Assembly (NCBI RefSeq): GCF_007992835.1
Contig: NZ_BKBA01000011.1
Span: forward strand, 124,001 to 188,000
Reading direction: 5' to 3'
Source: Knoellia locipacati
Lineage (GTDB): Bacteria; Actinomycetota; Actinomycetes; Actinomycetales; Dermatophilaceae
Length of the DNA: 64,000 nucleotides
Shown here piece after piece: positions 1-64,000 of the stretch. The notes below the pieces were generated by a model. It saw nothing but the letters and a program-made list of their open reading frames with translations. It was not told where the DNA came from and did not search any database. The translations under genes were made by a program, and so were the position numbers. Position 1 is the first letter of the stretch; each line of letters opens with the position of its first letter.

Positions 1-16
1 CCCACGCCCGCCGGCG

Positions 17-640
17 TCAGGCGGGACGGACCTCGAGGACGCGGAAGCCCTTGCTCGACGCGAGCCGGGCACACGGCATACGCAGCTCTGCCTCGATCCA
101 CCGCTGGAGGCTGTCGGAGCCGAGGTTCTTCTGCACGACGAGGTAGGCCCTTCCGCCCGGTGCCAGCCGAGGCAGCCAGAGCCGGAGCAGATCGTGCAGC
201 GCGGCCTTGCCGATGCGGATCGGGGGGTTGGACCAGATGAGGTCGTATGCCGTCCCGTCCGCGACCGCCTCCGGCGTCACCGCGCGGACGTGGCTCAGAC
301 CCAGGGCCTCGGCGTTGCGGTTGGTGAGGTCCACGCTGCGCTCGTTGACGTCGACCGCGACGACGTCGGCGTGGGTCGACAGCATCCCGAGCGTGAGCGC
401 GATCGGGCCCCATCCGCAGCCGAGGTCGAGGAACCGTCCCGAGGGTGGGGGAGCGGGGACCTCCTCGAAGAGGACCGCCGTGCCCTTGTCGAGTCCTCCG
501 GGGCTGAAGATGCCCGGGGCGACCTCGACGGTCACGCGCCGGCCGGCCAGGGTGACGTCGAGTGGGCGGCGCTCGTCCGGGGTGGCCGGGTTGGCGGTGA
601 AGTAGTGCTCGCGCGAATCCGTTCGCCCCGAGTCGGTCAT
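17..640 (-). CDS. class I SAM-dependent methyltransferase, RsmC-like
   Basis: A 207-residue SAM-dependent methyltransferase of the RsmC/MTS (small-domain) type, a group whose known members methylate guanines of 16S rRNA or other nucleic acid. The SAM-binding glycine motif FLDLGCGWG lies near residue 72, the acidic VDVNERS motif follows, and the catalytic NPP signature (IWSNPPIR) lies near residue 130. NPP motifs are typical of enzymes acting on exocyclic amino groups of bases. The ATG at 640 is chosen because the protein then begins just before the conserved region; the frame stays open far upstream only as antisense to hflX. It is divergent from hflX with about 20 bases between starts. The exact substrate cannot be told. 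Confidence 0.88.
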   Translation of the reverse strand: MTDSGRTDSREHYFTANPATPDERRPLDVTLAGRRVTVEVAPGIFSPGGLDKGTAVLFEEVPAPPPSGRFLDLGCGWGPIALTLGMLSTHADVVAVDVNERSVDLTNRNAEALGLSHVRAVTPEAVADGTAYDLIWSNPPIRIGKAALHDLLRLWLPRLAPGGRAYLVVQKNLGSDSLQRWIEAELRMPCARLASSKGFRVLEVRPA

Positions 641-661
641 AGGTGAGACCCTAGACGGAAC

Positions 662-2143
662 ATGACTGCACGACACGACTACCTTTCCGGCCAGGCCGAG
701 GCCCTCTCCGACGACGCCTTCGACGACGACGGCTTCCTGACCGAGGCCGACGGCGACGAGGCGAAGCCCTCCGCCCTCTACGACGGTGACCAGCTCGAAC
801 GCGAGGAGCGCGCTGCGCTGCGCCGTGTCGCCGGTCTCTCCACCGAGCTCGAGGACGTCACCGAGGTCGAGTACCGCCAGCTCCGTCTCGAGCGGGTCGT
901 CCTCGCGAGCGTGTGGTCCGAGGGGACCCTCGTCGACGCCGAGAACTCGCTGCGCGAGCTCGCCGCGCTCGCCGAGACCGCTGGCGCCGAGGTCCTCGAG
1001 GGCCTCATCCAGCGCCGCCAGAAGCCCGACACCGCGACCTACCTCGGCAAGGGCAAGGCGCAGGAGCTGCGCGACATCGTCGTGAGCGAGGGCGCCGACA
1101 CCGTCATCTGCGACACCGAGCTCGCACCCTCCCAGCGGCGTGCGCTCGAGGACGTCGTCAAGGTCAAGGTCATCGACCGCACCGCCCTCATCCTCGACAT
1201 CTTCGCCCAGCACGCCAAGAGCCGTGAGGGCAAGGCGCAGGTCGAGCTGGCCCAGCTCCAGTACCTCCTGCCGCGCCTGCGCGGCTGGGGTGAGTCGATG
1301 TCGCGCCAGGCCGGTGGCCAGGCGGCCGGCGGCCAGGGCATGGGCTCGCGCGGTCCGGGTGAGACCAAGATCGAGCTCGACCGCCGACGGATCAACACCC
1401 GTGTCGCCAAGCTCAAGCGCGACATCGCGGGGATGAAGACGCACCGCGACACCAAGCGTGGCAGCCGTCGCGCCAACGGCATCCCGAGCGTCGCGATCGC
1501 GGGCTACACCAACGCCGGCAAGTCCTCGATCCTCAACCGGCTCACCGGTGCCGGCGTCCTCGTGCAGAACCAGCTCTTCGCCACGCTCGACCCCACGGTG
1601 CGGCGCAGCGAGACCCCGGACGGGCGCGAGTTCACCTTCGCCGACACCGTCGGGTTCGTCCGCCAGCTGCCCCACCAGCTCGTCGAGGCGTTCCGCTCGA
1701 CCCTCGAGGAGGTGGCCGACTCCGACCTCCTGCTCCACGTCGTCGACGGCGCCCACCCCGACCCCGAGGGCCAGATCTCGGCCGTGCGCTCGGTGCTCGC
1801 CGACGTCGACGCGACCGACGTCAAGGAGATCATCGTCGTCAACAAGGCCGACATTGCCGACCCTGAGGTCGTCGACCGGCTGCTGCGCCACGAGAAGCAC
1901 GCGGTGGCCGTCTCGGCGCGCACCGGTGCCGGTCTCGACGAGCTCCGGGCGCTCATCGCCGACGAGCTCCCGAGCCCCGACATCGACATCGAGGTGCTCC
2001 TGCCCTACGGCCGTGGCGACCTCGTGAGCCGGATCCACGACGAGGGCGAGATCCTCGCGAGCGAGCACGTCGGCGAGGGCACGCGCGTCACCGCGCGGGT
2101 CAACGCCGACCTCGCCGCCGAGCTCACGGCATACCGTTCCTGA
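662..2143 (+). CDS. hflX: GTPase HflX
   Basis: Ribosome-associated GTPase HflX, which binds the 50S subunit and splits stalled or stressed ribosomes. The 493 residues hold an N-terminal HflX domain, a basic linker (residues about 225-260, rich in Gly, Arg and Lys) and a G domain: P-loop GYTNAGKSS near 280, switch DTVGF near 328 followed by the family signature RQLPHQLVEAFRSTLEE, and NKAD near 393. There is an acidic N-terminal extension (residues 14-40, many Asp/Glu), as in other actinobacterial HflX proteins. It starts 22 bases from a divergent methyltransferase and is followed closely by acetyltransferase genes on the same strand. Confidence 0.97.
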   Translation: MTARHDYLSGQAEALSDDAFDDDGFLTEADGDEAKPSALYDGDQLEREERAALRRVAGLSTELEDVTEVEYRQLRLERVVLASVWSEGTLVDAENSLRELAALAETAGAEVLEGLIQRRQKPDTATYLGKGKAQELRDIVVSEGADTVICDTELAPSQRRALEDVVKVKVIDRTALILDIFAQHAKSREGKAQVELAQLQYLLPRLRGWGESMSRQAGGQAAGGQGMGSRGPGETKIELDRRRINTRVAKLKRDIAGMKTHRDTKRGSRRANGIPSVAIAGYTNAGKSSILNRLTGAGVLVQNQLFATLDPTVRRSETPDGREFTFADTVGFVRQLPHQLVEAFRSTLEEVADSDLLLHVVDGAHPDPEGQISAVRSVLADVDATDVKEIIVVNKADIADPEVVDRLLRHEKHAVAVSARTGAGLDELRALIADELPSPDIDIEVLLPYGRGDLVSRIHDEGEILASEHVGEGTRVTARVNADLAAELTAYRS

Positions 2144-2746: not shown

Positions 2747-2755
2747 GGTGTCCGT

Positions 2756-3817
2756 ATGCCGTCCCCGAACGTCGTCGAGACCACCCGCCTGATCCTCCGG
2801 CCACCGACCGAGGCGGACCGCGACGCCTGGGTGCAGCTGCACCGCGACCCCCGGACCTACTGGCACGCCCCGCACGCGATGTCGCAGACCGACGACGACG
2901 CGGCGGCCTTCCTCGAGCGGACGCTGGCGCACTGGGACGAGCACGGCTTCGGTCTCTGGCTGGCGCTGGACAAGGTCACCCGCGAGGTCGTCGGCGTGTG
3001 CGGGCTCAAGGACGTCGAGGGTGCCTTCCTCAACCTCTACTACCGGCTCGTCTTCGTGGGGCTCGGGCACGGTCTGGGGCGCGAGATGTCGCGCGCCTCG
3101 GCCGCACACGCGCTCGAGTTCCTGCCCGCCCTCCCGGTGCGCGCGCTCGTCAAGGAGGTCAACATCCCGTCGGTGCGGACCGCTCTCGGCACCGGCTTCG
3201 AGCGGGTCGGCACCAGGGTGCTGCACGACGACCTGCCGGACGAGCCGCCGTCGACCGTGTTCGAGTCGCCCCGGGTCGAGGCGGTGACGACGTTCGACGC
3301 CGCCGCCCGCGAGCAGGTCCTCGACCTCTGGGTGCGTACCAATGACGCCGGCGGCTCGGTCGGCTTCCTCCCCGGCGCACCCCGCGACTCTGTCGACGCG
3401 GCGCTGCGGGCGCACGAGGACTCGATGGCGGCAGGCTCGACCGTCGCCGTCCTGCTCCGCTCCGCCGTCGACGCCCGGGTCCTCGGGACGTCCTTCCTCG
3501 AGCGGGGGTCGAACCCGCTGCTCGACCACACCCGCACCGTCTACCGGGTCATGACCGATCCCGACCGGCGCGGCCAGAACCTCGGCCGGCTCCTCATGGC
3601 CGCCACCCACCGCGTCGCCCGCGAAGCCGGAGTCGAGATCCTCAGCCTGGGGGTGCGCAGCGGCAGCGGGCTGTCGAGGTTCTACGGCTCGTGCGGCTAC
3701 GTGGAGGCGGGGCGTGTGCTCGGTGCCATCCGCGTCGCGCCCGGTGAGGAGCGCGACGACATCACGCTGACCCGCCGGCTCGACGACCGCACCCTCATCC
3801 CCGACCTGCGCGGCTGA
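2756..3817 (+). CDS. tandem GNAT acetyltransferase (two domains)
   Basis: A 353-residue protein made of two GNAT folds. Residues 1-160 form an Acetyltransf_3-like domain (VVETTRLILRPPTEADRDAW ... VNIPSVRTALGTGFERVG). Residues about 185-340 form a second, Acetyltransf_1-like domain with the acetyl-CoA loop DPDRRGQNLGRLLMAATH and the closing RFYGSCGYVEAG. The ATG at 2756 sits 9 bases after the previous stop with AAGGTG as ribosome-binding site, so the two acetyltransferases are probably co-transcribed and may be related by duplication. The ATG itself lies in a copy of the GTATGCCG octamer. Substrates are unknown. Confidence 0.82.
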   Translation: MPSPNVVETTRLILRPPTEADRDAWVQLHRDPRTYWHAPHAMSQTDDDAAAFLERTLAHWDEHGFGLWLALDKVTREVVGVCGLKDVEGAFLNLYYRLVFVGLGHGLGREMSRASAAHALEFLPALPVRALVKEVNIPSVRTALGTGFERVGTRVLHDDLPDEPPSTVFESPRVEAVTTFDAAAREQVLDLWVRTNDAGGSVGFLPGAPRDSVDAALRAHEDSMAAGSTVAVLLRSAVDARVLGTSFLERGSNPLLDHTRTVYRVMTDPDRRGQNLGRLLMAATHRVAREAGVEILSLGVRSGSGLSRFYGSCGYVEAGRVLGAIRVAPGEERDDITLTRRLDDRTLIPDLRG

Positions 3818-6118: not shown

Positions 6119-8713
6119 TCAGAGCCGCCGAACAGCAGTGGCGGCGATGACGAGCTCGCCCGAGGCGTCGCTGGCGTCGAGGTCGACGACGGCCTCGATG
6201 CCCCAGTCGCGGTCGTCCGCCGGGTCGGCGAGGACCTGGCGGACGCGCCAGATGCGGTGCTCGCTCTCGTCGTCGAGGCCCGGGACGACGTCGGTGGCGG
6301 GCTCCACCTGGAGCAGCTCAGGACCGCGGGCGTCGGCATCGGTGCCGATGGTGCCGTGCTCGTCCCAGTAGGCGCCGAGTGCGACGTCCCAGGCGTCGAG
6401 GTCCATGACGCGGGTGCGACCGTCCTCGGGGACGGCGGCCGAGTCGGCCTCGAGCCGGGCGAGCGCCTCGATGTCGTCACGCTCGGCGAGCTCGACCCGT
6501 CGCCACATGGCCTGGCGCACCATCGCGCGAAAAGCCCTGTCGTTGGCCGTGATCGGGCGCGGCGGGGGTGGGGCATCGCCGTGGGCAGCGGCCGCGTTGC
6601 GCACCGACTCGGGATCGGTGAGGGCGGCCCACTCGTCGATGAGGGAGGAGTCGGTCTGGCGGATCGTCTCGCCCAGCCACTCGATGATGGTGTCGAGCTC
6701 CTCGCCGCGGTGCACCTCGGGCACGGTCTGGCGCAGCGTCCGGTAGGCGTCGGAGAGGTAGCGCAGCACGACACCCTCGGAGCGGGTGAGCCCGTAGCGG
6801 CGGATGAGGTCGCCGAAGCTCATCGCCTGCTCCCACATCTCGCGCACGATGCTCTTGGGGTCCAGGGCCTCGTCCGGCAGCCACGGGTGCGTCTGCCGGT
6901 AGGTCTCGTAGGCCGGCTCGAGCATGTCGAGGAGCGGCCGGGGCCAGGTGATCTCTTCGACGATGGCGGTGCGCTCGTCGTACTCAACACCCTCGGCCTT
7001 GAGCTCGGCGATCCGCTCGCCCCGTGCCGCCCACTGCTGGGCCCGCAGCACCGGGCGCGGCGAGTCGAGGACGGCCTCGACCACGGAGACGACGTCGAGG
7101 GCGTGGGTGGGGGAGTCGGGGTCGAGGAGGTCGAGCGCCGCGAGGGCGAAGTGTGCCAGCGGCTGGTTGAGCGCGAAGTCGGCCGGCAGGTCCACCGTGA
7201 GCTCGACGGTGCGCCCGTCGGCGGCAGGCTCGGGCAGGCGCACGACCACCCCGGAGTCGAGAAGCGACCGCCCCAGCCGGATCGCCCGTCGGGCCAGCTT
7301 GGCCTGACCGACCAGGGACTCGTGGTTGTCGCGGACGAGGCGGCTCACGGCGGCCACGGGGTCACCGGGTCGGGCGATGAGGTTGAGGATCATCGCGTTG
7401 TCGATGCGCATCTTCGACGTCAGCGGCTCGGGCTCACTCGCGACGAGCTTGTCGAAGGTCTGCTCGGTCCAGACGATCGACCCCTCGGGCGGCTTGCGGC
7501 GCTGGACCTTGCGGAGCTTCTTGGGGTCGTCGCCGGCCTTGGCGATGTTGCGCTCGTTCTCGATGACGTGCGGCGGCGCCTGGACGATGACCGAGCCACT
7601 CGTGTCGAACCCCGCGCGGCCGGCGCGGCCGGCGATCTGGTGGAACTCGCGCGACCGGAACACCCGGTCCCGCTGCCCGTCGAACTTCGCGAGCCCGGTG
7701 AACAGCACCGTCCGGATGGGGACGTTGATGCCCACGCCGAGGGTGTCCGTGCCGGCGATGACCTTGAGCAGTCCGGCCTGCGCGAGCTGCTCGACGATCC
7801 GCCGGTAGCGGGGGAGCAGCCCGGCGTGGTGCACGCCGATGCCCCGGCGCAGCAGCCCGGACAGCGTCTTGCCGAAGCCGGCGGCGAACCGCACCGGAGC
7901 CAGCCGTTCGGCGATTGCGGACTTCTCCTCCGGCGTGAGCAGCTTGAGGGTGATGAGCGAGGCGGCGTGCTCGGCAGCGAGCTGCTGGGTGGGGTGCACG
8001 ACGTAGACCGGCGCCTGGTGGGTCGTGACGATCTCCTCGACCATCTCGGCGAGCGGCGTGAGCGACCACGTGAACGACAGCGGCACGGGGCGCTCGGCGG
8101 TGGTCACGAGGGCGACGTCGCGGCCCGTGCGGCGCTCGAGGTCCTCGCTGATCGTGCTCATGTCGCCGAGCGTGGCCGACATGAGCAGGAACTGTGCCTG
8201 CGGCAGCTCGAGCAGCGGCACCTGCCAGGCCCAGCCGCGCTGGCCGTCGGCGTAGTAGTGGAACTCGTCCATGACGACGAGCCCGACGTCGGCCGACGAG
8301 CCCTCCCGCAGGGCGATGTTTGCGAGCACCTCGGCGGTGCAGCAGATGATGGGGGCGTCGGCGTTGACGGCGGCGTCGCCCGTGAGGAGGCCGACGTTCT
8401 CGGCGCCGAAGACGTCGCAGAGCGCGAAGAACTTCTCGTTGACGAGGGCCTTGATCGGCGCGGTGTAGAAGCTGACGCGGTCACCGGCGAGGGCGGCGAA
8501 GTGGGCGGCGACCCCGACGAGCGACTTGCCGGACCCGGTCGGGGTGGCCAGCACGACGTTGCGTCCCGACACCACCTCGATGACGGCCTCGTCCTGGTGG
8601 GGGTACAACGCGATCCCGGACTCCTCCGCCCAGGCCGCGAAGACGGCATACAGGGTGTCGGGATCGGTCGTGACGGACGTCAGGGCGCGCTCGGCCAGCG
8701 GGTGCGAGGTCAT
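6119..8713 (-). CDS. Ski2-like DEAD/DEAH-box RNA helicase with DUF3516-type C-terminus
   Basis: An 864-residue superfamily 2 helicase, HelY/Mtr4-like. The Walker A motif TPTGSGKS is near residue 55, the Walker B motif VMDEFHYY (DEFH instead of the usual DEVH) near 146, SATLGD near 178, and motif VI QIAGRAGRAGF near 360. The large C-terminal part (about residues 400-864) matches the actinobacterial DUF3516 type of helicase. It probably unwinds RNA during decay or ribosome assembly. The ATG at 8713 is chosen from the ribosome-binding site GGGAGGATG upstream; an in-frame extension to 8830 would overlap the divergent glucosidase gene. It ends at the right edge of the accessory islet. Confidence 0.88.
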   Translation of the reverse strand: MTSHPLAERALTSVTTDPDTLYAVFAAWAEESGIALYPHQDEAVIEVVSGRNVVLATPTGSGKSLVGVAAHFAALAGDRVSFYTAPIKALVNEKFFALCDVFGAENVGLLTGDAAVNADAPIICCTAEVLANIALREGSSADVGLVVMDEFHYYADGQRGWAWQVPLLELPQAQFLLMSATLGDMSTISEDLERRTGRDVALVTTAERPVPLSFTWSLTPLAEMVEEIVTTHQAPVYVVHPTQQLAAEHAASLITLKLLTPEEKSAIAERLAPVRFAAGFGKTLSGLLRRGIGVHHAGLLPRYRRIVEQLAQAGLLKVIAGTDTLGVGINVPIRTVLFTGLAKFDGQRDRVFRSREFHQIAGRAGRAGFDTSGSVIVQAPPHVIENERNIAKAGDDPKKLRKVQRRKPPEGSIVWTEQTFDKLVASEPEPLTSKMRIDNAMILNLIARPGDPVAAVSRLVRDNHESLVGQAKLARRAIRLGRSLLDSGVVVRLPEPAADGRTVELTVDLPADFALNQPLAHFALAALDLLDPDSPTHALDVVSVVEAVLDSPRPVLRAQQWAARGERIAELKAEGVEYDERTAIVEEITWPRPLLDMLEPAYETYRQTHPWLPDEALDPKSIVREMWEQAMSFGDLIRRYGLTRSEGVVLRYLSDAYRTLRQTVPEVHRGEELDTIIEWLGETIRQTDSSLIDEWAALTDPESVRNAAAAHGDAPPPPRPITANDRAFRAMVRQAMWRRVELAERDDIEALARLEADSAAVPEDGRTRVMDLDAWDVALGAYWDEHGTIGTDADARGPELLQVEPATDVVPGLDDESEHRIWRVRQVLADPADDRDWGIEAVVDLDASDASGELVIAATAVRRL

Positions 8714-8766: not shown

Positions 8767-11505
8767 ATGACGTCGGTCGAGCCCGAGCAACGACCACAGA
8801 CCGAGGAGCACCGGCGGCTCGAGCACTCACCGGACGACGGGGACCCGTGGCGCGCCTGGGGTCCGTACGTCTCGGGCCGGCAGTGGGGGACCGTGCGCGA
8901 GGACTACTCGGCCGACGGTGACGCGTGGTCGTTCTTCCCGTTCGACCACGCCCACGCCCGCGCCTACCGCTGGGGCGAGGACGGCATCGCCGGCCTCTGC
9001 GACCGCTACGGCTTCCTCAACCTCGCGGTCGCGATGTGGAACGGCCGCGACGACCGGCTCAAGGAGCGCTGCTTCGGGCTCACCAACGGCGAGGGCAACC
9101 ACGGCGAGGACGCCAAGGAGTACTGGTGGCACCTCGACGCCACCCCCACGCACAGCTGGGCCCAGCACCTCTACCGCTACCCGCAGGCAGCCTTCCCGTA
9201 TGCCGTGCTCCGGGAGACGAACGCGGCCCGCGGTCACGAGGATCCCGAGTTCCAGCTCGTCGACACCGGGGCCCTGGCCGAGGACCGGTTCTTCGACGTC
9301 GTCACGACCCACGCCAAGGCGGCACCCGGTGACGTCCTCGTCACGGTCGAGGCCACGAACCACGGACCCGACCCGGCGCCGCTCGACCTCGTGCCGCAGC
9401 TGTGGTTCCGCAACACCTGGGCCTGGGGCCGGGACGACCGCACACCGGTCATCGAGGTCGTCGAGGGCACGCCTCCCGGCGGTGTCGTGCTGCGGGCGAC
9501 CCACGCCCACCTCGGGGTCGTCGAGCTCCACGCCGAGGGAGCGCCCGAGGTCCTCGTCTGCGACAACGAGACGAATGTCGAGGCGGTGTTCGGGGAGGGC
9601 GAGAGCCGCAGCCCGCACCCCAAGGACGCCGTCGACCGCGCGGTCGTCCACGGTGACCGGAGCCTGCTCGCCACCGACGGACGCGGCACCAAGGTGGCCC
9701 TGCGCTACTCCTTCGCCGAGGTCGCGCCGGGGGAGACCGTCCGGGTCCGGCTGCGGCTGCTCGACGACGCCTGGGCCGACGGCGCCCGCCCGGAGGCGCC
9801 GGCGCCCGGGCCCCCAGCGGGCGGTGGTGTGTTCGGTGGCGGCTTCGACGACGTGCTCGCGACGCGTCGACGTGAGGCCGACGCGTTCTATGCCACGGTC
9901 ATCCCCGACGGCGTCGGGGATCAGGAGCGGCTCGTGGCCCGACGCGCCTTCGCCGGGCTCAACTGGGGCAAGCAGCTCTACCGCTACGACGTGCGCGAGT
10001 GGCTCGCGGGCGACCCGGCCGGACCGCCACCACCGGACTCCCGCCGGGCCCGAGAGCCGCAGGGCCGCAACACCTCGTGGACCCACCTCGCCCTCGCCGA
10101 CGTCATCTCGATGCCCGACGAGTGGGAGTACCCGTGGTTCGCCGCGTGGGACCTCGCCTTCCACACCGTCGCCATCGCCCACATGGACCCGCAGTTCGCC
10201 AAGAACCAGCTGCTGCTCATGTGCCGCGAGTGGAGCCAGAACCCCAACGGCCAGCTCCCGGCATACGAATGGCAGTTCAGCGACGTCAACCCGCCGGTCC
10301 ACGCCTGGGCGGCCTGGCACGTCTACGTGCTCGACGGCGCGCGGGACCACGGCTTCCTCGTGCGGGTCTTCACCAAGCTGCTCTTCAACTTCTCGTGGTG
10401 GCTCAACCGCAAGGACTCCGACGGGTCCAACCTCTTCGAGGGCGGCTTCCTCGGGATGGACAACATCAGCGTCTTCGACCGGTCGCGCGAGGTGCCGCAG
10501 GGGTGGCGGCTCGAGCAGTCCGACGCGACGAGCTGGATGGCGTTCACCTGCCTTCAGATGCTCCGGATCGCGCTCGAGCTGAGCCGGGTCGACCGGTCGT
10601 GGGACGGGCTGGCGACGACCTTCCTCGAGCACTTCTTCTCGATCGCCGAGGCGATGGAGACCTTCGGCACCGAGGGCGTCTCGCTCTGGGACGACGAGGA
10701 CGAGTTCTTCTACGACGTGCTCGTCGACGCCGACGACCAGGGGTCACCGGTGCGGGTGCGCTCGCTCGTCGGCCTGCTGCCCCTCATCGCCGTCGCCAAC
10801 GTCCCGGCGTGGGCGTTCGACGAGCTCGGCGACTTCACGTCGCGCCTGCAGTGGCTCCAGGACCGCCGGCCCGACCTCACCGACTCGCTGCTCCACAGCC
10901 AGGACGGTGAGGTCGTCCACAACAGCCTCACCCCGGTCGTGCGCCCCCGGCTCGAGGCGATCCTGCGACGCCTCTTCGACGAGGGGGAGTTCCTCTCACC
11001 CCACGGGATCCGGTCGCTCTCGGCGGCCTACCGCGGCGGGGCCGACATCGACGCCGGTGGCACCGCCGTGCACATCGAGTACGACCCCGGCGAGTCGACC
11101 ACCGGCATGTTCGGCGGCAACTCGAACTGGCGCGGACCCGTGTGGTTCCCGACCAACGTGCTCATCCTCGACGCGCTGCTCGTCATCGCCGAGGGCGCCG
11201 ACAGCGACGTCCGCGTCGAGTTCCCCACCGGGTCCGGGCGCGAGGTCGCGCTCGAGGAGGCGGCCATCGGTCTGCGCGACCGCCTCATCGCCCTCTTCCT
11301 GCCGGGCGAGGACGGCAGGCGCCCCGGCACCCCACGCGAGTATCCCGGCGGCGACCTGTGGGACGTCCACCCGACGTTCAGCGAGCACTTCAACGGCGAC
11401 AACGGCGTCGGCCTCGGGGCCTCGCACCAGACCGGCTGGACCGCCCTGGTCGCCCACCTCATCTGCACCCCACCCGACGCCCTGCGCGAGGAGATCGACA
11501 CATGA
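8767..11505 (+). CDS. GH63-type (MGH1-like) glucosidase
   Basis: A 912-residue intracellular glycoside hydrolase of the GH63/MGH1-like (alpha/alpha)6-barrel group, with no signal peptide. The N-terminal beta-domain shows WSFFPFDHAHARAYRWGEDG and ERCFGLTNGEGNHGED. The barrel shows PWFAAWDLAFHTVAIAHMDP near residue 458, where the Asp of WDLAFH is the expected acid, then ARDHGFL and FEGGFLGMDNISVFD. Known relatives cleave alpha-glucosides or mannosyl/glucosylglycerate, a compatible solute; the substrate here is unproven. The next gene overlaps its stop by four bases (ATGA), so it is co-expressed with a glucose-dehydrogenase-like SDR, which fits release and oxidation of glucose. Confidence 0.85.
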   Translation: MTSVEPEQRPQTEEHRRLEHSPDDGDPWRAWGPYVSGRQWGTVREDYSADGDAWSFFPFDHAHARAYRWGEDGIAGLCDRYGFLNLAVAMWNGRDDRLKERCFGLTNGEGNHGEDAKEYWWHLDATPTHSWAQHLYRYPQAAFPYAVLRETNAARGHEDPEFQLVDTGALAEDRFFDVVTTHAKAAPGDVLVTVEATNHGPDPAPLDLVPQLWFRNTWAWGRDDRTPVIEVVEGTPPGGVVLRATHAHLGVVELHAEGAPEVLVCDNETNVEAVFGEGESRSPHPKDAVDRAVVHGDRSLLATDGRGTKVALRYSFAEVAPGETVRVRLRLLDDAWADGARPEAPAPGPPAGGGVFGGGFDDVLATRRREADAFYATVIPDGVGDQERLVARRAFAGLNWGKQLYRYDVREWLAGDPAGPPPPDSRRAREPQGRNTSWTHLALADVISMPDEWEYPWFAAWDLAFHTVAIAHMDPQFAKNQLLLMCREWSQNPNGQLPAYEWQFSDVNPPVHAWAAWHVYVLDGARDHGFLVRVFTKLLFNFSWWLNRKDSDGSNLFEGGFLGMDNISVFDRSREVPQGWRLEQSDATSWMAFTCLQMLRIALELSRVDRSWDGLATTFLEHFFSIAEAMETFGTEGVSLWDDEDEFFYDVLVDADDQGSPVRVRSLVGLLPLIAVANVPAWAFDELGDFTSRLQWLQDRRPDLTDSLLHSQDGEVVHNSLTPVVRPRLEAILRRLFDEGEFLSPHGIRSLSAAYRGGADIDAGGTAVHIEYDPGESTTGMFGGNSNWRGPVWFPTNVLILDALLVIAEGADSDVRVEFPTGSGREVALEEAAIGLRDRLIALFLPGEDGRRPGTPREYPGGDLWDVHPTFSEHFNGDNGVGLGASHQTGWTALVAHLICTPPDALREEIDT

Positions 11506-12373: not shown

Positions 12374-14650
12374 GTGCCGACCCTCGACGACCTCCTTGCA
12401 GCCGCTGTCAGCGGGGTCAAGGGCAGCGAGCGGCCCGGCCAGGTGTCGATGGCCAAGGCGGTCGCGCACGCGATCGACAACGACGAGCACCTCCTCGTCC
12501 AGGCCGGCACCGGCACCGGCAAGTCCCTCGCCTACCTCGTCCCCGCGGTCCAGCACGCCATCGACGCGGGCAAGCCCGCCGTCGTCGCCACCGCGACCCT
12601 GGCCCTCCAGGCGCAGATCGTCGACCGTGACATGCCCCGCGTCGCCGACGCGCTGACGCCCCTGCTCGGCCGCCGCCCGACCTACGCGATCGTCAAGGGG
12701 CGGCGCAACTACCTGTGCGCCCACAAGCTCGAAGGTGGTTTCCCCGACGACGAGGAGGGCCTGTTCGGCGTCGGCGACGTCGACAAGCAGGCCGGACGCC
12801 TCGGCCAGGAGGTCGTCCGACTGCGCGAGTGGGCCGACGAGACCGAGTCGGGCGACCGCGACGAGCTCGTCCCCGGTGTCTCCGAGCGCGCCTGGCGCCA
12901 GGTCTCGGTGAGCGCCCACGAGTGCCTCGGCAGCAAGTGCCCGATGGTCGCCGAGTGCTTCGTCGAGCGCTCGCGCGAGGCCGCCAAGAGCGTCGACGTC
13001 ATCGTCACCAACCACTCGTTCATGGCCATCGACGCCTTCGAGGGCAGGCAGATGCTGCCCGAGCACGACGTGCTCGTCGTCGACGAGGCCCACGAGCTCG
13101 TCGACCGCGTCACCGCGACGATCACCGACGAGGTGACGCCCGGCATGGCGCGGCTCGCGGCCAAGCGCGCCGGCCGGCAGGCCGACTCGAGCGAGACCGT
13201 CGACGACGCCGGCACCTTCCTCGAGTCCGTCCTCGACGAGATCCCCGAGGGCCGGCTCACCGGCATCCCCGACAACCTCGCGCTCGCCCTCGCCCGGCTG
13301 CGCGACACGACCCGCCAGGTGCAGACCGAGCTCAAGCCCGCACAGGGCCAGGAGGTCGACGGCTCGCGCCAGGTGGCGCGCGCGGCCATCGACGAGCTCC
13401 ACGAGAACGCCTCCCGCGTCCTCGAGGAGCGCGAGCTCGACGTCGTCTGGGTGAGCAAGGACCCGCGGCGGGGCAGCGTCCTGCGGGTCGCCCCGATGAG
13501 CGTCGCGATGCTCGTGCGCGACAAGATCTTCGAGGAGCGCACCGTCGTCCTCACCTCGGCCACGCTCGAGCTCGGCGGCACCTTCGACGCCGTCGCCGGC
13601 ACGATCGGTCTGCGCGGCGAGGGTGCGCCGAAATGGACCGGCCTCGACGTCGGCAGCCCGTTCGACTACCCCCAGCAGGGCATCGCCTACGTCGCCAAGC
13701 ACCTCCCGCCGCCGGGCCGCGACGGTGCCTCGCCCGAGACCATGGACGAGATCGAGACGCTGGTCCGCGCCGCCGGGGGGCGCACGCTCGGGCTTTTCTC
13801 GTCGATGCGTGCCGCCCGCGCCGCCACCGACGAGATGCGCGATCGCCTCAAGGACCTCGACGGCGAGGTCGCCGTGCTCTGCCAGGGCGAGGACCAGATC
13901 TCGACCCTCGTGCGGCAGTTCGCGCGCGACCCGCGCACCTGTCTCTTCGGCACCCTCAGCCTCTGGCAGGGCGTCGACGTCCCGGGCTCGAGCTGCCAGC
14001 TCGTCATCATCGACCGCATCCCGTTCCCCCGGCCCGACGACCCGCTGGCGTCCGCGCGCTCGCAGGCCATCGCCCGCATGGGTGGCAACGGCTTCATGGC
14101 CGTGTCCGCGACCCACGCGGCGCTGCGCCTCGCGCAGGGCGCCGGCCGCCTCATCCGCCGCGGTGACGACCGTGGCGTGGTCGCCTTCCTCGACTCCCGC
14201 ATGATGAGTGCCCGGTATGCCGGGTTCCTCCAGCGCTCGCTCCCGCCCTTCTGGCCGACGTCGGACCGCACCCTCGTCCTCAACGCCCTCAAGCGGCTCG
14301 ACGCCACCGCGCCCCCGCCGCTCGAGGTCGCCGACCCGGCCCTGCGCGGACTCACCGGCGCCGTCAAGGGCACGTCGATGGGCGACGCCGGGGTCAAGGG
14401 CCAGGTCGACGCGACCGACACCCGACCCGTGGCGACCGCACCACCCGTGGCCCCGTCCGCCCGCACGGCGGTGACCCAGGGACATGCGTGGACCGACGAG
14501 GAGGACGAGGAGCTGCGGGACGGGGTCGACCTCGGTCTCGACGTCGAGGAGCTGAGCGAGTCCCTCGAGCTGCCGGCCGACGTCATCGCGGCCCGGCTCG
14601 ACGGCCTGGGTCTCGAGGCCGGCGCGGGCTCCACCCTGAGCTTCGACTGA
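12374..14650 (+). CDS. dinG: DinG-family ATP-dependent DNA helicase
   Basis: A 758-residue XPD/DinG-type 5'-3' helicase that handles DNA damage, R-loops and fork obstacles. The Walker A motif AGTGTGKSLAYL is near residue 44. Four cysteines for a [4Fe-4S] cluster are visible (one in NYLCAHK near 115 and three in ECLGSKCPMVAECF near 185-197), and the DEAH box (VVDEAHELVD) is near 237. Helicase motifs QGVDVPG and GRLIRRGDDRG follow. After a Pro/Ala-rich linker, residues about 700-758 form an extra small helical, acidic domain (HAWTDEEDEELRDGVDLG...), discussed in the findings. The start is a GTG. It precedes holA. Confidence 0.93.
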   Translation: MPTLDDLLAAAVSGVKGSERPGQVSMAKAVAHAIDNDEHLLVQAGTGTGKSLAYLVPAVQHAIDAGKPAVVATATLALQAQIVDRDMPRVADALTPLLGRRPTYAIVKGRRNYLCAHKLEGGFPDDEEGLFGVGDVDKQAGRLGQEVVRLREWADETESGDRDELVPGVSERAWRQVSVSAHECLGSKCPMVAECFVERSREAAKSVDVIVTNHSFMAIDAFEGRQMLPEHDVLVVDEAHELVDRVTATITDEVTPGMARLAAKRAGRQADSSETVDDAGTFLESVLDEIPEGRLTGIPDNLALALARLRDTTRQVQTELKPAQGQEVDGSRQVARAAIDELHENASRVLEERELDVVWVSKDPRRGSVLRVAPMSVAMLVRDKIFEERTVVLTSATLELGGTFDAVAGTIGLRGEGAPKWTGLDVGSPFDYPQQGIAYVAKHLPPPGRDGASPETMDEIETLVRAAGGRTLGLFSSMRAARAATDEMRDRLKDLDGEVAVLCQGEDQISTLVRQFARDPRTCLFGTLSLWQGVDVPGSSCQLVIIDRIPFPRPDDPLASARSQAIARMGGNGFMAVSATHAALRLAQGAGRLIRRGDDRGVVAFLDSRMMSARYAGFLQRSLPPFWPTSDRTLVLNALKRLDATAPPPLEVADPALRGLTGAVKGTSMGDAGVKGQVDATDTRPVATAPPVAPSARTAVTQGHAWTDEEDEELRDGVDLGLDVEELSESLELPADVIAARLDGLGLEAGAGSTLSFD

Positions 14651-15748: not shown

Positions 15749-15789
15749 GCGGTGGGGGAGCACACGGCATACGCACGCGTTCGGGCGTT

Positions 15790-17676: not shown

Positions 17677-17702
17677 GTATGCCGTGGCGCACCACGGCAT
17701 AC
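17677..17702. repeat. inverted pair of the CGGCATAC octamer
   Basis: GTATGCCGTGG (17677-17687), the loop CGCA, then CCACGGCATAC (17692-17702) form a perfect 11-bp stem. It sits between the divergent mazF-like gene and lepA, so it is not a terminator of either. It could be an operator or simply two opposed copies of the genome-wide octamer. Confidence 0.8.
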
Positions 17703-44339: not shown

Positions 44340-44406
44340 AGCGCGACGTGCCCACAGTGCGGACCGGAGGGCGACGCGCAGGTGGGCGGACGGCATACTC
44401 GATGCC

Positions 44407-46353: not shown

Positions 46354-46395
46354 CCTTCCCTCATGGGGAGCAAAAGCTGAGGTATGCCGTCCCGC

Positions 46396-49964: not shown

Positions 49965-50588
49965 TCAGCGGATCCCGCGTGGTCGGAACTGGATCGAGAT
50001 CCTCGGGCCGACCGGCTTGCTCGTCTTGGGGATGGCGTGGTCCCAGGTGCGCTGGCACGACCCACCCATGACGACGAGGTCGCCGTGTCCGAGCGAGAAG
50101 CCGATGGATGCCCCGCCACCGCGGGGTCGCAGCATGAGCGAGCGCGCCGAGCCGACCGAGAGGATGGCGACCATCGTGTCCATGTCACGGGCGCGGCCGA
50201 TGCGGTCGCCGTGCCACGCGACTGAGTCGCGGCCGTCGCGGTAGAGGCACATCCCGGCGGAGACGAAGGGCTCGCCCAGCTCACCGGCATACGTGCGGGA
50301 CAACGCTTCTCGCGCCTCGGTGAGGGTCGGGTGGGGGAGCGCCTCGCCCTCCTCGTAGAACTTGAGCAGGCGGGGGACGTCGACGACGCGTTCGTACATC
50401 TCGCGCCGCTCCGCCTTCCACGGGACCTCGTGGTGCAATGCGTCGAAAAGGAGGTCGGCGCCGGCCAGCCACGCCGGTTGGTAGTCGACCCATGCGCCGC
50501 GCGACAGGTGGGTGCGCGTGGGCGCCAGGTGTCCGAGCTCGATGGCGTCACCGGTGTCGAAGAGCGAGTGCTGCAGGACCGCGTCCAT
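49965..50588 (-). CDS. AlkB-like 2-oxoglutarate-Fe(II) dioxygenase
   Basis: A 207-residue DNA/RNA demethylase of the AlkB family. The iron site HxD...H is in SVAWHGDRIGRARD (near residue 125) and TWDHAIPK (near 183), and 2-oxoglutarate binding uses PRISIQFRPR at the end. SVGSARSLMLRPRGGG and FSLGHGDLVVMGGSCQ are family hallmarks. It repairs alkylation damage in nucleic acid. It is not next to an ada gene, so regulation is not evident. Confidence 0.92.
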   Translation of the reverse strand: MDAVLQHSLFDTGDAIELGHLAPTRTHLSRGAWVDYQPAWLAGADLLFDALHHEVPWKAERREMYERVVDVPRLLKFYEEGEALPHPTLTEAREALSRTYAGELGEPFVSAGMCLYRDGRDSVAWHGDRIGRARDMDTMVAILSVGSARSLMLRPRGGGASIGFSLGHGDLVVMGGSCQRTWDHAIPKTSKPVGPRISIQFRPRGIR

Positions 50589-51362: not shown

Positions 51363-51430
51363 GGCGACACCGTAGGGCTTCGGGCGGCACGGCATACCGG
51401 CATTGTCGGAGGCTCGGGAGACAATGGGGC

Positions 51431-52156
51431 GTGCCGCTCTACCGTGACCAGGGGATCGTGCTGCGCACCCACAAGCTGGGCGAGGCAGACCGCATCATCA
51501 CCGTGCTCACGCGCAGCCTGGGCAAGGTCCGCACCGTCGGCAAGGGCGTGCGCCGCACGAAGTCGCGCTTCGGCGCACGGCTCGAGCCGGGGATGCTCGT
51601 CGACCTCCAGTGCTACGAGGGACGCAACCTCGACACCGTGACCCAGGCCGAGACGCTCGAGTCGTGGGGCGACGTGTGCGCGCGCGACTACGACGCGTGG
51701 ACCGCGGCCAACGCCGTCCTCGAGACCTGCGACCGGCTCACCGAGGAGCGAGAGCCGGCGCTCCAGCAGTACCTCCTCGTCACCGGCGCGATGCGCTCGC
51801 TCGCGGGCAAGGAGCACGACCCCAACCTCGTCCTCGACGCCTACCTCCTGCGCGCGCTCGCGGTCGCCGGCTGGGCGCCGAGCTTCCACGACTGCGCCAA
51901 GTGCGGCGCCGAGGGTCCTCACCGCGCGTTCCACATCGTGTCCGGTGGCGCCGTCTGCTCCGTATGCCGTCCGCCCGGCTCCTCCGCCCCCGCACCGGAG
52001 ACGTTGCGCCTGCTTGCCGCGCTGCTCGCCGGTGACTGGATGATTGCCGACTCGTCCGACGTGCGGCACCGCCGTGAGGGCAGCGGCCTGACCACGGCGT
52101 TCTTGCAGTGGCACCTCGAACGCGGGGTGCGCTCGCTCCGTATGGTGGAGCGGTGA
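51431..52156 (+). CDS. recO: DNA repair protein RecO
   Basis: Recombination mediator (241 residues) that loads RecA on gaps with RecR. The N-terminal OB fold is [54 protein letters not shown] zinc finger follows near residue 154 (CAKCG ... CSVCRPP, four Cys). The start is GTG. Its stop overlaps the uppS start by four bases; recO-uppS is a conserved actinobacterial pair. Confidence 0.96.
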
Positions 52157-55288: not shown

Positions 55289-56232
55289 GAGCAGCCCAGA
55301 CCCTTCCGGAGCGCGGTGAGGTTGCTCCGCATGATCTCGAAGTAGTCGCTCCCGGCGGAAGCCTTGCTCAGCCCCTCGATCGGGTCGAGGACGGCCACCG
55401 TCGCACCGGACTCCTTGGCGATGGTCTCGGTGAGGTCCCGGCTCACGAGCGGCTCGGCATAGATCGTCGTCACCTTGTGCTCCCGCACGTGCTCGACGAT
55501 GTCCTTCATCGTCGCGGCGTTGGGCTCGGCGTCGGGGGACAGGCCGGAGACGCCCGACTGGTGCAGGTCGTAGCGGTCCGCGAGGTAGGCGAACGCCACG
55601 TGCCCGGTGACGAGGTCGCGGTTCGTGCAGGTCTTGAGCCCGGTCGCGAACTCGGTGTCGAGCGTGGTCAGCTCCGCGACCATGGTCTCGGCATTGGCGC
55701 GGTATGCCGTCGCGCCGGCCGGGTCGACCGCTGCCAGCTTCTTGGCGATCGCCTTCACTGCCGAGGCGTAGCGGGTCGGGTCGAGCCAGAAGTGTGGGTC
55801 CACGGCGCCCTCGTCCCCGTGCTCCTCGCCGCCGCCGTGGTCGTGCCCGTCGTCGGTGGCGGCGACCGTGAGGTCGACCTCGGTCGCGACATCGAGAGCC
55901 TTGGAGGCGTCGACCTGCGAGCCGATGGCGTCGTCCACGGCGGGCTGGAAGCCCTTCTCGTAGACGACGAGCGAGGAACGGCCGAGGTCGGCGACGTCGC
56001 GTGGGGTGAGCTCGACGTCGTGCGGCTCGGCGCCGGGCTTGGTGAGCGAGGTGACGTCCACCCGTTCCCCACCGACCCGCTCGAGCGCGTAGCCGAGCGG
56101 GTAGAACGCCGCGACGACCGGCAGCGCACCCGGCTTCGCCGAGCCCGACGACTCCGCCTCCGAGCTGCCGCCACATCCGGCGACGACGAGTGCTCCGACG
56201 AGCGGGGCGGTGACGAGGAGGGTGCGCTTCAT
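55285..56232 (-). CDS. znuA: zinc ABC transporter substrate-binding lipoprotein ZnuA-like
   Basis: A 315-residue metal-binding lipoprotein (cluster A-I). The lipobox is VVAGCGGSS with the lipidated Cys near residue 20. Mature-part metal ligands are EPHDVELTPRD (His) and, after a charged His loop DDGHDHGGGEEHGDEG (about 128-143) that marks zinc rather than manganese binders, DPHFWLDPTRY. VTGHVAFAYLADRYDL and TTIYAEPLVSRDLTETIAKESGATVAVLDPIEGL complete the fold. The ATG at 56232 lies at the end of the Zur-type operator, so the mRNA is probably leaderless; an ATG at 56241 is an alternative. Confidence 0.95.
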   Translation of the reverse strand: MKRTLLVTAPLVGALVVAGCGGSSEAESSGSAKPGALPVVAAFYPLGYALERVGGERVDVTSLTKPGAEPHDVELTPRDVADLGRSSLVVYEKGFQPAVDDAIGSQVDASKALDVATEVDLTVAATDDGHDHGGGEEHGDEGAVDPHFWLDPTRYASAVKAIAKKLAAVDPAGATAYRANAETMVAELTTLDTEFATGLKTCTNRDLVTGHVAFAYLADRYDLHQSGVSGLSPDAEPNAATMKDIVEHVREHKVTTIYAEPLVSRDLTETIAKESGATVAVLDPIEGLSKASAGSDYFEIMRSNLTALRKGLGCS

Positions 56233-56695: not shown

Positions 56696-56817
56696 GAGCG
56701 TGCAGCCTACGGGAGCGGACGGCATACCCGATCGGCCCCTCGTCAGCGGCAGCGCAACCGCCGGGGTCGGTCAAACCGGTGCAAGGAGGTGTCCGTGCGG
56801 CCAGTAACCTTGCGCGC

Positions 56818-59585: not shown

Positions 59586-60500
59586 ATGGGCGAGAGCACG
59601 CAGGACGGTGCCGACGGCGCCGTCGCCGACGCCGCCGGTCGTCTGTATGCCGTCCCGCTCGCGGACTTCGTCGCGTCGCGCAAGGCGCTCGCGGCCGAGG
59701 TCAGGGCAGCGGCGGGCGCGCCCGCCGCCAAGGCCGTCCTCGCCCTGCGCAAGCCGACGCTCACGGCGTGGGCGATGAACCTCGTCCCCCGAGGTGACGC
59801 GAGCGCGCTCGCCGAGCTCGTCGGCCTGGGCGCCCGGATGCGGGCCGCCCAGTCGCGGCTCGACGCCGCCCTGCTCACGTCGGTGAGGGGCGAGCGTGAC
59901 GCGGCGCTCACGGCATACGTCGCCTCGGTCGTGACCGCCGCGGAAGGTGAGGGAGGGGCGCTGTCGGTGGCCGCGCGCGACGAGGTGAGGGCCTCGGCGA
60001 TCGCCGCGCTCGCCGACGAGACCGCGGCGCAGGCGCTCGCGTCCGGTCAGCTGACCCGGGCACTGAGCTACAGCGGGTTCGGCGAGGTCGACCTCTCCGG
60101 CGCCGTGGGGGTGACGAGCTCGGGATCGATCATGTCGGTGCTCCGGGGTGGCGGGCAGGGTGTGGTGGACGGGGGAGACGAGGGAGACGAGGTCGCGGCC
60201 GGCTCCGCCGAGTCGCAGGACGACGACGGCTCCGACGACGACGAGCTCACCCCCGAGGAGCTGGCCCGCGCCGTCGCGGAGGCCAAGGCGGCCAAGGCGC
60301 AGGCGAAGGCCCTGGCGCGGGAGCGTCGCAGGGCCGAGGACGAGCTCGAGTCGGCACAGGCGGAGATGGCGCAGGCCCAGTCGGCCCTCGACGCCGCCGA
60401 GCAGGAGGCGCGCACGGCTCGACGGGCTGTCGTCGACGCCCAGTCACGCCTCGACGCGGCCCGTTCCGCGGTCGCCGCGCTGCCGGTGCAGGGCAGCTGA
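59586..60500 (+). CDS. hypothetical protein with C-terminal coiled coil
   Basis: A 304-residue, Ala-rich protein. Residues 18-190 form a helical domain: LYAVPLADFVASRKALAAEVRAAAGAPAAKAVLALRKPTLTAWAMNL, then SGQLTRALSYSGFGEVDLSGAVG. A disordered acidic linker (about 195-225) follows, then a long coiled coil (about 228-304: AKALARERRRAEDELESAQAEMAQAQSALDAAEQEARTARRAV). The first domain recurs in actinobacterial proteins whose function is not known to me. No signal peptide. It precedes the CNNM regulatory leader. Confidence 0.75.
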   Translation: MGESTQDGADGAVADAAGRLYAVPLADFVASRKALAAEVRAAAGAPAAKAVLALRKPTLTAWAMNLVPRGDASALAELVGLGARMRAAQSRLDAALLTSVRGERDAALTAYVASVVTAAEGEGGALSVAARDEVRASAIAALADETAAQALASGQLTRALSYSGFGEVDLSGAVGVTSSGSIMSVLRGGGQGVVDGGDEGDEVAAGSAESQDDDGSDDDELTPEELARAVAEAKAAKAQAKALARERRRAEDELESAQAEMAQAQSALDAAEQEARTARRAVVDAQSRLDAARSAVAALPVQGS

Positions 60501-62038: not shown

Positions 62039-63136
62039 ATGGAGTTCGGCATCTTCACCGTCGGGGACGTCACCATGGACCCGACCACCGGCGAGGCGCC
62101 CTCGGAGAACGAGCGCATCAAGGCCACCATCGCCATCGCGAGGAAGGCGGAGGAGGTCGGGCTCGACGTCTTCGCCACCGGTGAGCACCACAACCCTCCG
62201 TTCGCTGCTCCGGCCAACCCGCCGGTGCTGCTCGCGGCCATCGCCGCGCAGACCGAGCGCCTCGTCCTGTCGACGTCGACGACGCTCATCACGACGAACG
62301 ACCCGGTGCGCATCGCCGAGGACTACGCCTACCTGCAGCACCTCTCGGACGGCCGCATGGACCTCATGATGGGCCGAGGCAACACCGGCCCGGTCTACCC
62401 GTGGTTCGGCAAGGACATCCGCGACGGGCTCGACCTCGCCGTCGAGAACTACGCCCTCCTGCACCGCCTGTGGCGCGAGGAGGCCGTGAGCTGGCAGGGC
62501 AAGTTCCGGACCCCGCTCCAGGGCTTCACGTCCACGCCCCGCCCGCTCGACGGCATACCGCCGTTCGTCTGGCACGGCTCGATCCGCAGCCCCGAGATCG
62601 CCGAGCAGGCCGCGTTCTACGGCGACGGGTTCTTCCACAACAACATCTTCTGGCCGCTCTCGCACACCAAGCAGATGGTCAACCTCTACCGTCGCCGCTA
62701 CCAGCACCACGGCCACGGCAAGCACGACCAGGCCATCGTCGGCCTGGGTGGCCAGGTCTTCATGCGCAGGAACAGCCAGGACGCCGTGCGTGAGTTCCGT
62801 CCCTACTTCGACAACGCCCCCGTCTACGGTCACGGCCCGTCGATGGAGGACTTCACCCTCGAGACACCGCTCACCGTCGGTTCGCCGCAGCAGGTCATCG
62901 AGCGCTACGGCGCCATGGCCGACCACGTCGGCGACTACCAGCGCCAGCTGTTCCTCATGGACCACGCCGGCCTGCCGCTCAAGACCGTCCTCGAGCAGCT
63001 CGACATCCTCGGTGGCGAGGTCGTGCCCGAGCTGCGCAGGATCGCTGACGCCCGTCGTCCCGCCCACGTGCCCGCCACGGCACCCCGTCACGCCGAGCGC
63101 CTCGCCGCGCTCGACGGCACCCCGGTGGAGGTCTGA
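62039..63136 (+). CDS. LLM class flavin-dependent monooxygenase, CE1758-type
   Basis: A 365-residue luciferase-like (TIM barrel) flavin monooxygenase. MEFGIFTVGDVTMDPTTGEAPSENERIKATIAIARKAEEVGLDVFATGEHHNPPF at the start and GRMDLMMGRGNTGPVYPWFGKDIRDGLDLAVENYALLHRLWRE are typical of the CE1758 subfamily, which is paired with a dedicated FMN reductase. The ATG at 62039 has AAGGAG at ideal spacing. The reductase gene follows one base after its stop codon. The substrate is unknown. AACTAGTT, an 8-base palindrome, lies upstream in the leader near 62012. Confidence 0.9.
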   Translation: MEFGIFTVGDVTMDPTTGEAPSENERIKATIAIARKAEEVGLDVFATGEHHNPPFAAPANPPVLLAAIAAQTERLVLSTSTTLITTNDPVRIAEDYAYLQHLSDGRMDLMMGRGNTGPVYPWFGKDIRDGLDLAVENYALLHRLWREEAVSWQGKFRTPLQGFTSTPRPLDGIPPFVWHGSIRSPEIAEQAAFYGDGFFHNNIFWPLSHTKQMVNLYRRRYQHHGHGKHDQAIVGLGGQVFMRRNSQDAVREFRPYFDNAPVYGHGPSMEDFTLETPLTVGSPQQVIERYGAMADHVGDYQRQLFLMDHAGLPLKTVLEQLDILGGEVVPELRRIADARRPAHVPATAPRHAERLAALDGTPVEV

Positions 63137-63137
63137 C

Positions 63138-63797
63138 ATGACCCGTCGCATCGTCGCGGTCACCGCAGGCCTGTCCGAGCCCAGCTCGACCCGTCTGCTC
63201 ACCGACCGCCTCACCGAGGCCGTCGACCGGCACGTCACCGCCCACGGTGAGGACGCGGCCATCGAGGTCGTCGAGCTGCGCCCGCTAGCGAAGCTCATCG
63301 CCGAGCAGATGCTCACGCGCTTCCCCAGCGGCGAGCTCACCGCGGCGATCGAGAAGGTCCTGTCCGCCGACGCGCTCGTCGTGGTGACGCCGGTCTTCTC
63401 GGGGTCCTACAGCGGGCTGTTCAAGTCCTTCTTCGACAACCTGGACGTGGGCGCCCTGGACGGCAAGCCGGTCCTGATCGCCGCCACGGGCGGGTCCTCC
63501 CGGCACTCGCTCATGCTCGACCACGCGATGCGTCCGCTGTTCTCCTACCTCCATGCCTCGGTCGTCCCGACCGGTGTCATGGCGGCGACCGACGACTTCG
63601 GCACGACCGGGCTGGACCGCAGGGTCGACCGGGCCGCCGCCGAGCTCGTCGCGGCGCTGCTCGGCGCCGCCGCGGGAGCCTCCGCGGGGCGGTCGGGGTT
63701 CCTGCCCGCCGAGGGTGAGCAGCGCGAGGCCGGATTCACCGACCGCTTCGACGACGTGCCGGACTTCACCGAGCTGCTCCGCCGCGCCTCGTCCTGA
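63138..63797 (+). CDS. FMN reductase, CE1759-type partner
   Basis: A 219-residue NADPH-dependent FMN reductase of the CE1759 subfamily, flavodoxin-like: MTRRIVAVTAGLSEPSSTRLLTDRL, VVELRPLAKLIAEQML, LVVVTPVFSGSYSGLFKSFFDNLDVGALDGKPVLIAATGGSSRHSLMLDHAMRPLFSYL. It supplies reduced FMN to the adjacent monooxygenase. The ATG at 63138 is one base from the preceding stop, so the two are translationally coupled. Confidence 0.9.
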   Translation: MTRRIVAVTAGLSEPSSTRLLTDRLTEAVDRHVTAHGEDAAIEVVELRPLAKLIAEQMLTRFPSGELTAAIEKVLSADALVVVTPVFSGSYSGLFKSFFDNLDVGALDGKPVLIAATGGSSRHSLMLDHAMRPLFSYLHASVVPTGVMAATDDFGTTGLDRRVDRAAAELVAALLGAAAGASAGRSGFLPAEGEQREAGFTDRFDDVPDFTELLRRASS

Positions 63798-64000
63798 GGT
63801 CCGGACACGCCAGCAACCACCCTCTCGATGGGTGGTCAGCGGGTGAAGGCTGCTACCGTTGCCACGTTGCCTTTCAGACCACGTCCTGCGTGGCCGACAT
63901 GACCGACTCGCCCTGCGAACAGTTCGCGGTGTGACCGGGTCGGGAATCGGCGGCAATGAGGACTCCACACGGGAGTTCTCGCAACACACAGAAGAGGCAA
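63798..64000 (+). promoter_or_regulatory. gene-free right edge, probable promoter and leader
   Basis: No coding region is supported in the last 203 bases. TACCGT at 63854-63859 after a TGC could be an extended -10, which would leave a leader of more than 130 bases running off the window towards a plus-strand gene outside. A tiny 11-codon frame (MTDSPCEQFAV) begins at 63899; I cannot tell whether it is used. Confidence 0.35.

Follow-up and report, generated by a model that had tools for sequence, protein, structure and literature searches.

An over-represented octamer in Knoellia locipacati

We analysed the octamer CGGCATAC (reverse complement GTATGCCG) in a stretch of 64,000 nucleotides of the Knoellia locipacati genome (RefSeq assembly GCF_007992835.1, contig NZ_BKBA01000011.1, positions 124,001 to 188,000 of the forward strand), referred to below as the window. 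Genes were called with our own scripts, and a few of the calls may be wrong (for example 17238-19682). The original prediction listed 47 copies of the octamer, 25 on one strand and 22 on the other, against about two expected from composition, and described them as lying both in genes and in gaps. A recount was identical (Table 1). The order-3 Markov expectation for the window is 2.1, and 100 dinucleotide shuffles gave a mean of 0.70 copies (largest 4). By our gene calls, some of them doubtful, 35 of the 47 copies are inside predicted genes. A had been described as the usual preceding base and is found before 31 of the 47 copies, and the three ATA sites and the GTA site that had been picked out are correct by our gene calls; the copy at 32141 is a possible additional ATA site, in a doubtful call. 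Two of the 49 GCATAC/GTATGC hexamers of the window are not part of the octamer, in agreement with the number predicted, but both had been placed one base off, their true positions being 32666 and 32947.

The excess is confirmed as real and spread across the whole genome. The K. locipacati assembly (3,587,375 bases in 19 contigs) holds 2535 copies, 1269 on the plus and 1266 on the minus strand. The same word read backwards, which served as the control for genome counts, occurs 99 times (50 and 49), so that the genome-wide count is far from background. A sequence set of 284 kb, made up of the window and 11 further stretches of the same genome, contains 192 exact copies where 0.99 are expected under an order-3 Markov model with the copies masked, and the density is 0.50-0.85 per kb in every one of the 12 stretches.

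Table 1. The 47 copies of CGGCATAC in the window. Intergenic and codon entries follow our own gene calls; the last column gives the Knoellia relatives in which the copy is exact, out of all eight or of those aligned.
Positions	Strand	Context	Exact in relatives
74..81	+	intergenic	
245..252	-		
2127..2134	+		
2754..2761	-	intergenic	
8644..8651	+		
9198..9205	-		
10259..10266	+		
14215..14222	-		
15765..15772	+	intergenic	
17677..17684	-	hairpin left arm	
17695..17702	+	hairpin right arm	
19799..19806	+	hairpin left arm, intergenic	
19824..19831	-	hairpin right arm, intergenic	
20501..20508	-		
22545..22552	-	ATA codon	
23729..23736	+	ATA codon	
25056..25063	+		
25973..25980	-		
26380..26387	+	intergenic	
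28282..28289	-		6/8
30338..30345	+		7/8
32004..32011	-		7/7 aligned
32141..32148	+		7/7 aligned
34461..34468	+		4/8
35639..35646	-		3/8
36659..36666	+	intergenic	2/5 aligned
38376..38383	-		4/8
39163..39170	-		8/8
39232..39239	-		7/8
39875..39882	+	intergenic	0/1 aligned
42541..42548	+		3/3 aligned
43602..43609	-		7/8
43859..43866	+		7/8
44391..44398	+	intergenic	6/6 aligned
46382..46389	-	intergenic	
46498..46505	-		
47463..47470	+		
48415..48422	-		
50285..50292	+		
51390..51397	+	intergenic	
51962..51969	-	GTA codon	
55237..55244	+		
55702..55709	-		
56720..56727	+	intergenic	
59645..59652	-		
59911..59918	+		
62551..62558	+	ATA codon	

Codon use, mutation bias and artefact

Fifty of the 55 predicted genes of the window contain 32 copies, compared with 1.8 after synonymous codons were shuffled within each gene (largest 6 in 300 shuffles). 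A set of 268 predicted genes (255 kb), from which weakly scoring calls had been removed, gives 140 copies against 10.9 in the same comparison (largest 19 in 100 shuffles). Codon use is therefore not the explanation, and the count lies well away from the codon-shuffled expectation. In the same 268 genes the word accounts for a large share of some rare codons: 59 of 113 TAT, 13 of 19 ATA, 50 of 503 GCA and 4 of 44 GTA codons fall within it. It is hardly conceivable that the excess comes from a bias of mutation or codon use, from contaminating adapter or from a mobile repeat dispersed in the genome. Abstracts show that CGGCATAC is contained in the Illumina P7 adapter; against contamination, the flanks of the copies match the 24-base adapter at 18 of 24 positions at best (11 stretches checked), and we rejected it on this ground. 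The flanks beyond the preceding base are nearly uninformative, and dozens of separate assemblies hold more than 1000 copies each.

Exactness, strand balance and placement

The 24 words that differ from CGGCATAC by one mismatch occur 172 times in the 284 kb against 119 expected, a 1.44-fold excess (permuted words, mean 1.03, standard deviation (sd) 0.26), and the clearest of these forms is CGGCATAG, with 11 copies against 1.3. The drop from the exact word (192 against 0.99) to its one-mismatch forms is thus steep. Passages of PMC1939737 report a comparable collapse, 82-92 fold, between exact and one-mismatch forms of known uptake words. The base preceding the word is A in 60% and T in 2% of copies in this genome, and A plus G make up at least 62% in every other group counted.

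The two strands are balanced across the 12 stretches (chi-square 1.9 on 12 degrees of freedom), a balance not expected of Chi or segregation words. Gaps of up to 1 kb hold 45 copies in 22.8 kb, or 2.0 per kb, compared with 0.55 per kb in genes (140 copies in 254.7 kb). Copies are also more evenly spaced than random sets, with a coefficient of variation of 0.73 against 0.915 (sd 0.061) and none of 500 random sets as even. Even spacing recurs in other Knoellia (9 of 1000 random sets as even), in G151 (1 of 1000) and in MAG065 (21 of 1000).

Placement bears on the possibility that the word is a transcription signal, either a terminator or a regulator site. All eight close pairs in K. locipacati are inverted, six of them intergenic by our gene calls, and 17 of the 23 copies in tandem gaps are in the half of the gap nearer the upstream stop codon, both of which would suit such a signal. 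However, the density in divergent gaps (2.15 copies per kb) matches that in tandem gaps (2.00), 140 of the 192 copies are inside predicted genes, and just 16 of the 192 belong to close inverted pairs. A role in transcription is accordingly very improbable.

The word is confined to one family

Copies were counted in 186 genomes of the family of Knoellia, 228 genomes of the order and 144 further genomes of the phylum. The family in this set (NCBI Intrasporangiaceae and neighbours) is what we take to be the Dermatophilaceae of GTDB. Genomes with at least 0.12 copies per kb by hand count were called carriers, a threshold that falls in a gap in the distribution between 0.14 and 0.10 per kb. Carriers make up 107 of the 186 family genomes and occur in 30 of its 53 genera. 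Outside the family the density stays at or below about 0.08 per kb in all 372 genomes, none of which reaches 0.12. Within the genomes searched, the word is confined to one family.

Loci of named genomes (about 22 kb, some shorter, around a helicase gene that adjoins the tad locus) place the word in Humibacillus, Intrasporangium calvum, a Tetrasphaera metagenome-assembled genome (MAG) and, at lower density, Ornithinimicrobium cerasi. No copy is present in the approximately 22-kb loci of Phycicoccus species, Janibacter melonis, J. corallicola and Arsenicicoccus piscis. A record titled Janibacter sp. HTCC2649 is a carrier, and it groups with Knoellia. On a helicase tree at least seven changes of word state are forced, which may be too many, since the labels of loci L080 and L087 rest on two copies in short loci.

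Among stretches from other families, 14 of 18 were long enough for word ranking, and none of these had a word that we judged to be of this kind. As a separate observation, the 20-kb locus L141 of G204, from another family of the order, has 16 copies of GGCATCCG against 2.6 expected and nine of AGGAGTTC against 0.6, possibly a further word outside the family. Other short words are strongly over-represented in single loci and may be local repeats: AAGCCCTT in L131 (G192), ATTTGGGTG in L127 (G188), CATAGGAG in L023 (G038) and CCCCTTCG in L144 (G092).

Dialects of the word

Word ranking in stretches of relatives brought out a second octamer, CGGCATCC, in genera g9 and g15. It is dominant in five genomes of three genera (G017, G018, G034, G035 and G178; locus L058 was counted as the same genome as G035), with 3619-4480 copies, or 1805-2258 per strand, next to 14-185 copies of CGGCATAC per strand. 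G036 and G037 hold both words, CGGCATCC at 983-1116 and CGGCATAC at 566-623 per strand. In genus g46, which is Phycicoccus-like, two genomes carry 548-674 copies of CGGCATCC per strand, and all remaining family genomes have 111-629 copies, with reversed-word controls of 38-274 (186 genomes counted). Close pairs of CGGCATCC in G034 and G035 are inverted in 8 of 11 cases. A third form, CGCATAC, occurs in all four genomes of genus g13 (G025-G028) at 1368-2328 copies, 665-1175 per strand, with controls of 74-133, and tops the word ranking for this genus (129 kb ranked, 75 copies against 7.7). Unaided, the ranking returned CGGCATCC as the top 8-mer in G034/G035, G178 and g9, and CGCATAC as the top 7-mer in G025, G026 and G028. 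There are thus at least three dialects, CGGCATAC, CGGCATCC and CGCATAC, with two separate branches bearing CGGCATCC and two mixed genomes. The dialects go beyond what the original prediction had observed. In G119 and G129 (genus g41) we also noted about 400 copies of CGCATAC per strand against a control of about 125, plus a modest excess of CGGCATAC, perhaps a mixed or shifting dialect.

In a phylogeny built from helicase, TadA and CpaE, CGGCATCC has two places (support is given as the tree printed it once re-rooted). One is genus g15 (support 98.4/99), sister to word-free Phycicoccus; the other unites G017 with G178 (94.2/97) and adjoins G045, G172 and Humibacillus, all of which bear CGGCATAC. 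The direction of dialect change is our inference. No aligned site showed an exchange in place between CGGCATAC and CGGCATCC in six pairs within g15, and four comparisons between g15 and CGGCATAC genomes showed one such site apiece. The near absence of exchanged sites suggests that a dialect switches mostly by loss of old sites and gain of new ones.

Replacement of one word by another between relatives would also fit methylation of the type associated with HIP1 (highly iterated palindrome 1) of cyanobacteria. An orphan DNA methyltransferase and linked repair would then create and maintain the word, and dialects would follow changes of the enzyme. According to passages of PMC4390886, HIP1 is a very frequent short word tied to a methyltransferase, is scarce in or almost missing from certain cyanobacteria, and in some of these is replaced by alternates that each have a matching methyltransferase. 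HIP1 and its alternates are palindromes, however, whereas CGGCATAC and its dialects are asymmetric. We regard a methylation word as the main rival to an uptake signal, though an unlikely one.

Conservation of sites and copy number in phage-type DNA

To assess conservation, a 20-kb region that contains 17 copies was compared with eight Knoellia relatives (82-86% identity), and only aligned places were counted. The word is unchanged at 79 of 102 such places, whereas octamers of equal G+C content are unchanged at 13210 of 35223 and octamers in general at 39103 of 125744. Within genus g15, 26 of 29 CGGCATCC sites are shared between G034 and G035 (93% identity) and 23 of 28 between G036 and G037 (95%). 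Sites of CGGCATAC are kept between Knoellia species, and retention fades at larger distance.

The phage portal family PF04860, the only portal family searched, is rare and matches in 9 of the 186 family genomes. The phage-type stretches from the four of these genomes that bear the word (50 kb, some of them small contigs of incomplete genomes) hold two copies of it against about 14 expected from host density. A phage-database search with one prophage stretch gave no match.

If the word were bound, in either orientation, by a protein of chromosome organisation or recombination, this would account for the whole-genome spread, the even spacing in Knoellia, the kept sites and the few copies in phage-type DNA. 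Yet each of the 12 stretches is strand-balanced, unlike Chi and FtsK-orienting words, which are strand-biased, and loss and change of dialect between sister species would be odd for a housekeeping function. We consider such a protein an improbable cause of the pattern.

Competence machinery

The ComEC family is present in 180 of the 186 family genomes. The Tad ATPase family TIGR03819 scores above cut-off in 168; a looser match (E ≤ 0.001) takes in 184 yet also 13 of 14 control genomes, so the above-cut-off count was used. PilM_2, a type IV pilus family, is found in 7 of 186 genomes and in none of nine Knoellia. In K. locipacati a ComEA-like gene, named by eye, adjoins comEC. None of these three families (ComEC, PilM_2 and the Tad ATPase) separates word-bearing from word-free genomes. 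In another actinobacterium, Micrococcus luteus, transformation proceeds by way of an Flp pilus together with comEA and comEC, according to PMC6370729 and PMC4322843.

A candidate self-DNA uptake signal

We propose that naturally transforming members of the Knoellia family use CGGCATAC as a signal to recognise self-DNA for uptake, and put the probability of this at about 60%. The original prediction had likened the word both to DNA-uptake words and to HIP1. The first comparison is supported by its exactness, lack of strand bias, intergenic enrichment, kept sites in Knoellia, low count in phage-type DNA, range of one family, gain and loss, and above all by the dialects; the second fits less well, because of the palindromic nature of HIP1 and its alternates.

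As an uptake signal, the word would act at the cell surface, where free DNA bearing it would be bound preferentially, most likely by a putative reader among the minor pilins of the Tad/Flp pilus. Bound DNA would be pulled in via ComEA and ComEC and then recombined. If word-bearing fragments are taken up more often, copies would be restored and added across the genome wherever the change is tolerated: in gaps between genes and, within genes, mostly as Ala-Tyr or Tyr-Ala, despite the rare codons. A change of receptor would change the favoured word, so that old copies decay and new ones accumulate, giving CGGCATAC, CGGCATCC and CGCATAC, and loss of specificity or competence would let the word decay to background. 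Selective uptake, the pilus as reader and drive as the cause of accumulation are all steps that we infer from the pattern in genomes.

The closest parallels are the DNA uptake sequence (DUS) of Neisseriaceae and the uptake signal sequence (USS) of Pasteurellaceae, to which we liken the word by its genome pattern. Passages of PMC3630211 and PMC12616744 describe DUS as present in thousands of copies that lie in permissive and intergenic positions, form inverted pairs in some genomes and come in dialects that follow phylogeny, and report dialects with a shared core for both DUS and USS, the latter having two (PMC12616744). The dialects described here likewise have a core in common and track the phylogeny. 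By its pattern CGGCATAC would work like a DUS, and it is a candidate member of the class. Both known words are unrelated to CGGCATAC. Knoellia is, moreover, a monoderm actinobacterium in which PilM_2 was not found and no ComP-like receptor was identified, whereas the receptor candidate for USS, PpdA/ComN, is a type IV minor pilin (passages of PMC12616744). M. luteus resembles Knoellia as an actinobacterium with comEA, comEC and tad clusters, according to passages of PMC6370729; no uptake word appears to be reported for it, terms for such words being absent from the main text of PMC8467076.

Several observations weigh against an uptake signal. Between G034 and G036 (79% identity) only 10 of 43 CGGCATCC sites are shared, 23% against 19% for any octamer. 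A remnant excess of CGGCATAC, 5-10 times the reversed word, persists in four of the five CGGCATCC genomes. Close pairs are inverted in five of six cases in four genomes or MAGs but in none of five, all direct, in ten loci of other Knoellia, and no T-tract is evident at the hairpins of paired copies. Even spacing is absent in G099 (348 of 1000 random sets as even), the Humibacillus group (406) and two CGGCATCC groups (785 and 136). A non-phage control stretch of G119 is likewise poor in the word, with one copy against about 2.9 expected, so that the low count in phage-type DNA is supportive and not decisive. The ComEC family also matches 10 of 14 control genomes, and ComEC and Tad genes are equally common in word-free relatives, for which reasons their presence carries little weight. 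The order of Tad genes does not differ visibly between word-bearing and word-free genomes, nor do the Flp, TadE and TadF sequences by eye, some loci having given no Flp or a single pilin by regular expression.

The absence of any such word known from actinobacteria, as originally stated, agrees with passages of a 2025 paper that calls Neisseriaceae and Pasteurellaceae the only families known to have DNA uptake sequences (PMC12616744), and no report of an uptake-type word in actinobacteria is among the open-access matches listed; direct text matches to the octamer are masked by adapter sequences. We give roughly even chances to a broader proposal: sequence-specific uptake of self-DNA would have evolved here a third time, independently of the two known systems and for the first time in a Gram-positive (monoderm) lineage, and would use a Tad/Flp and not a type IVa pilus as its reader. 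The system would comprise three or more dialects, with CGGCATCC appearing separately in two places and both words present together in two genomes. If true, this third origin, in bacteria unrelated to the two known families and unlike them in envelope and pilus, would be a test of why uptake words evolve. Word-free, switched and mixed relatives would offer ready contrasts in the search for the receptor, and laboratory transformation of many environmental actinobacteria might be eased by including the word in the DNA.

Other elements in the window

Rfam at gathering thresholds gave no match in the window, and ARAGORN no tRNA. A long, near-perfect hairpin element lies at 46300-46383, with its self-complementary part at 46306-46362. 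Stretches of about 80 bases like it are found at many places in at least eight of nine Knoellia genomes and nowhere else in the K. locipacati stretches. A different short word, GGCAATCA, in some cases as ACTGATTGCC, occurs in eight copies in the window against 0.18 expected, at 25544-25581, 52041-52048, 52961-53031 and 56283-56369. Several of these copies are in gaps that flank an apparent Fur-family gene, recognised by eye, and metal transporter genes, and they are perhaps putative regulator sites.

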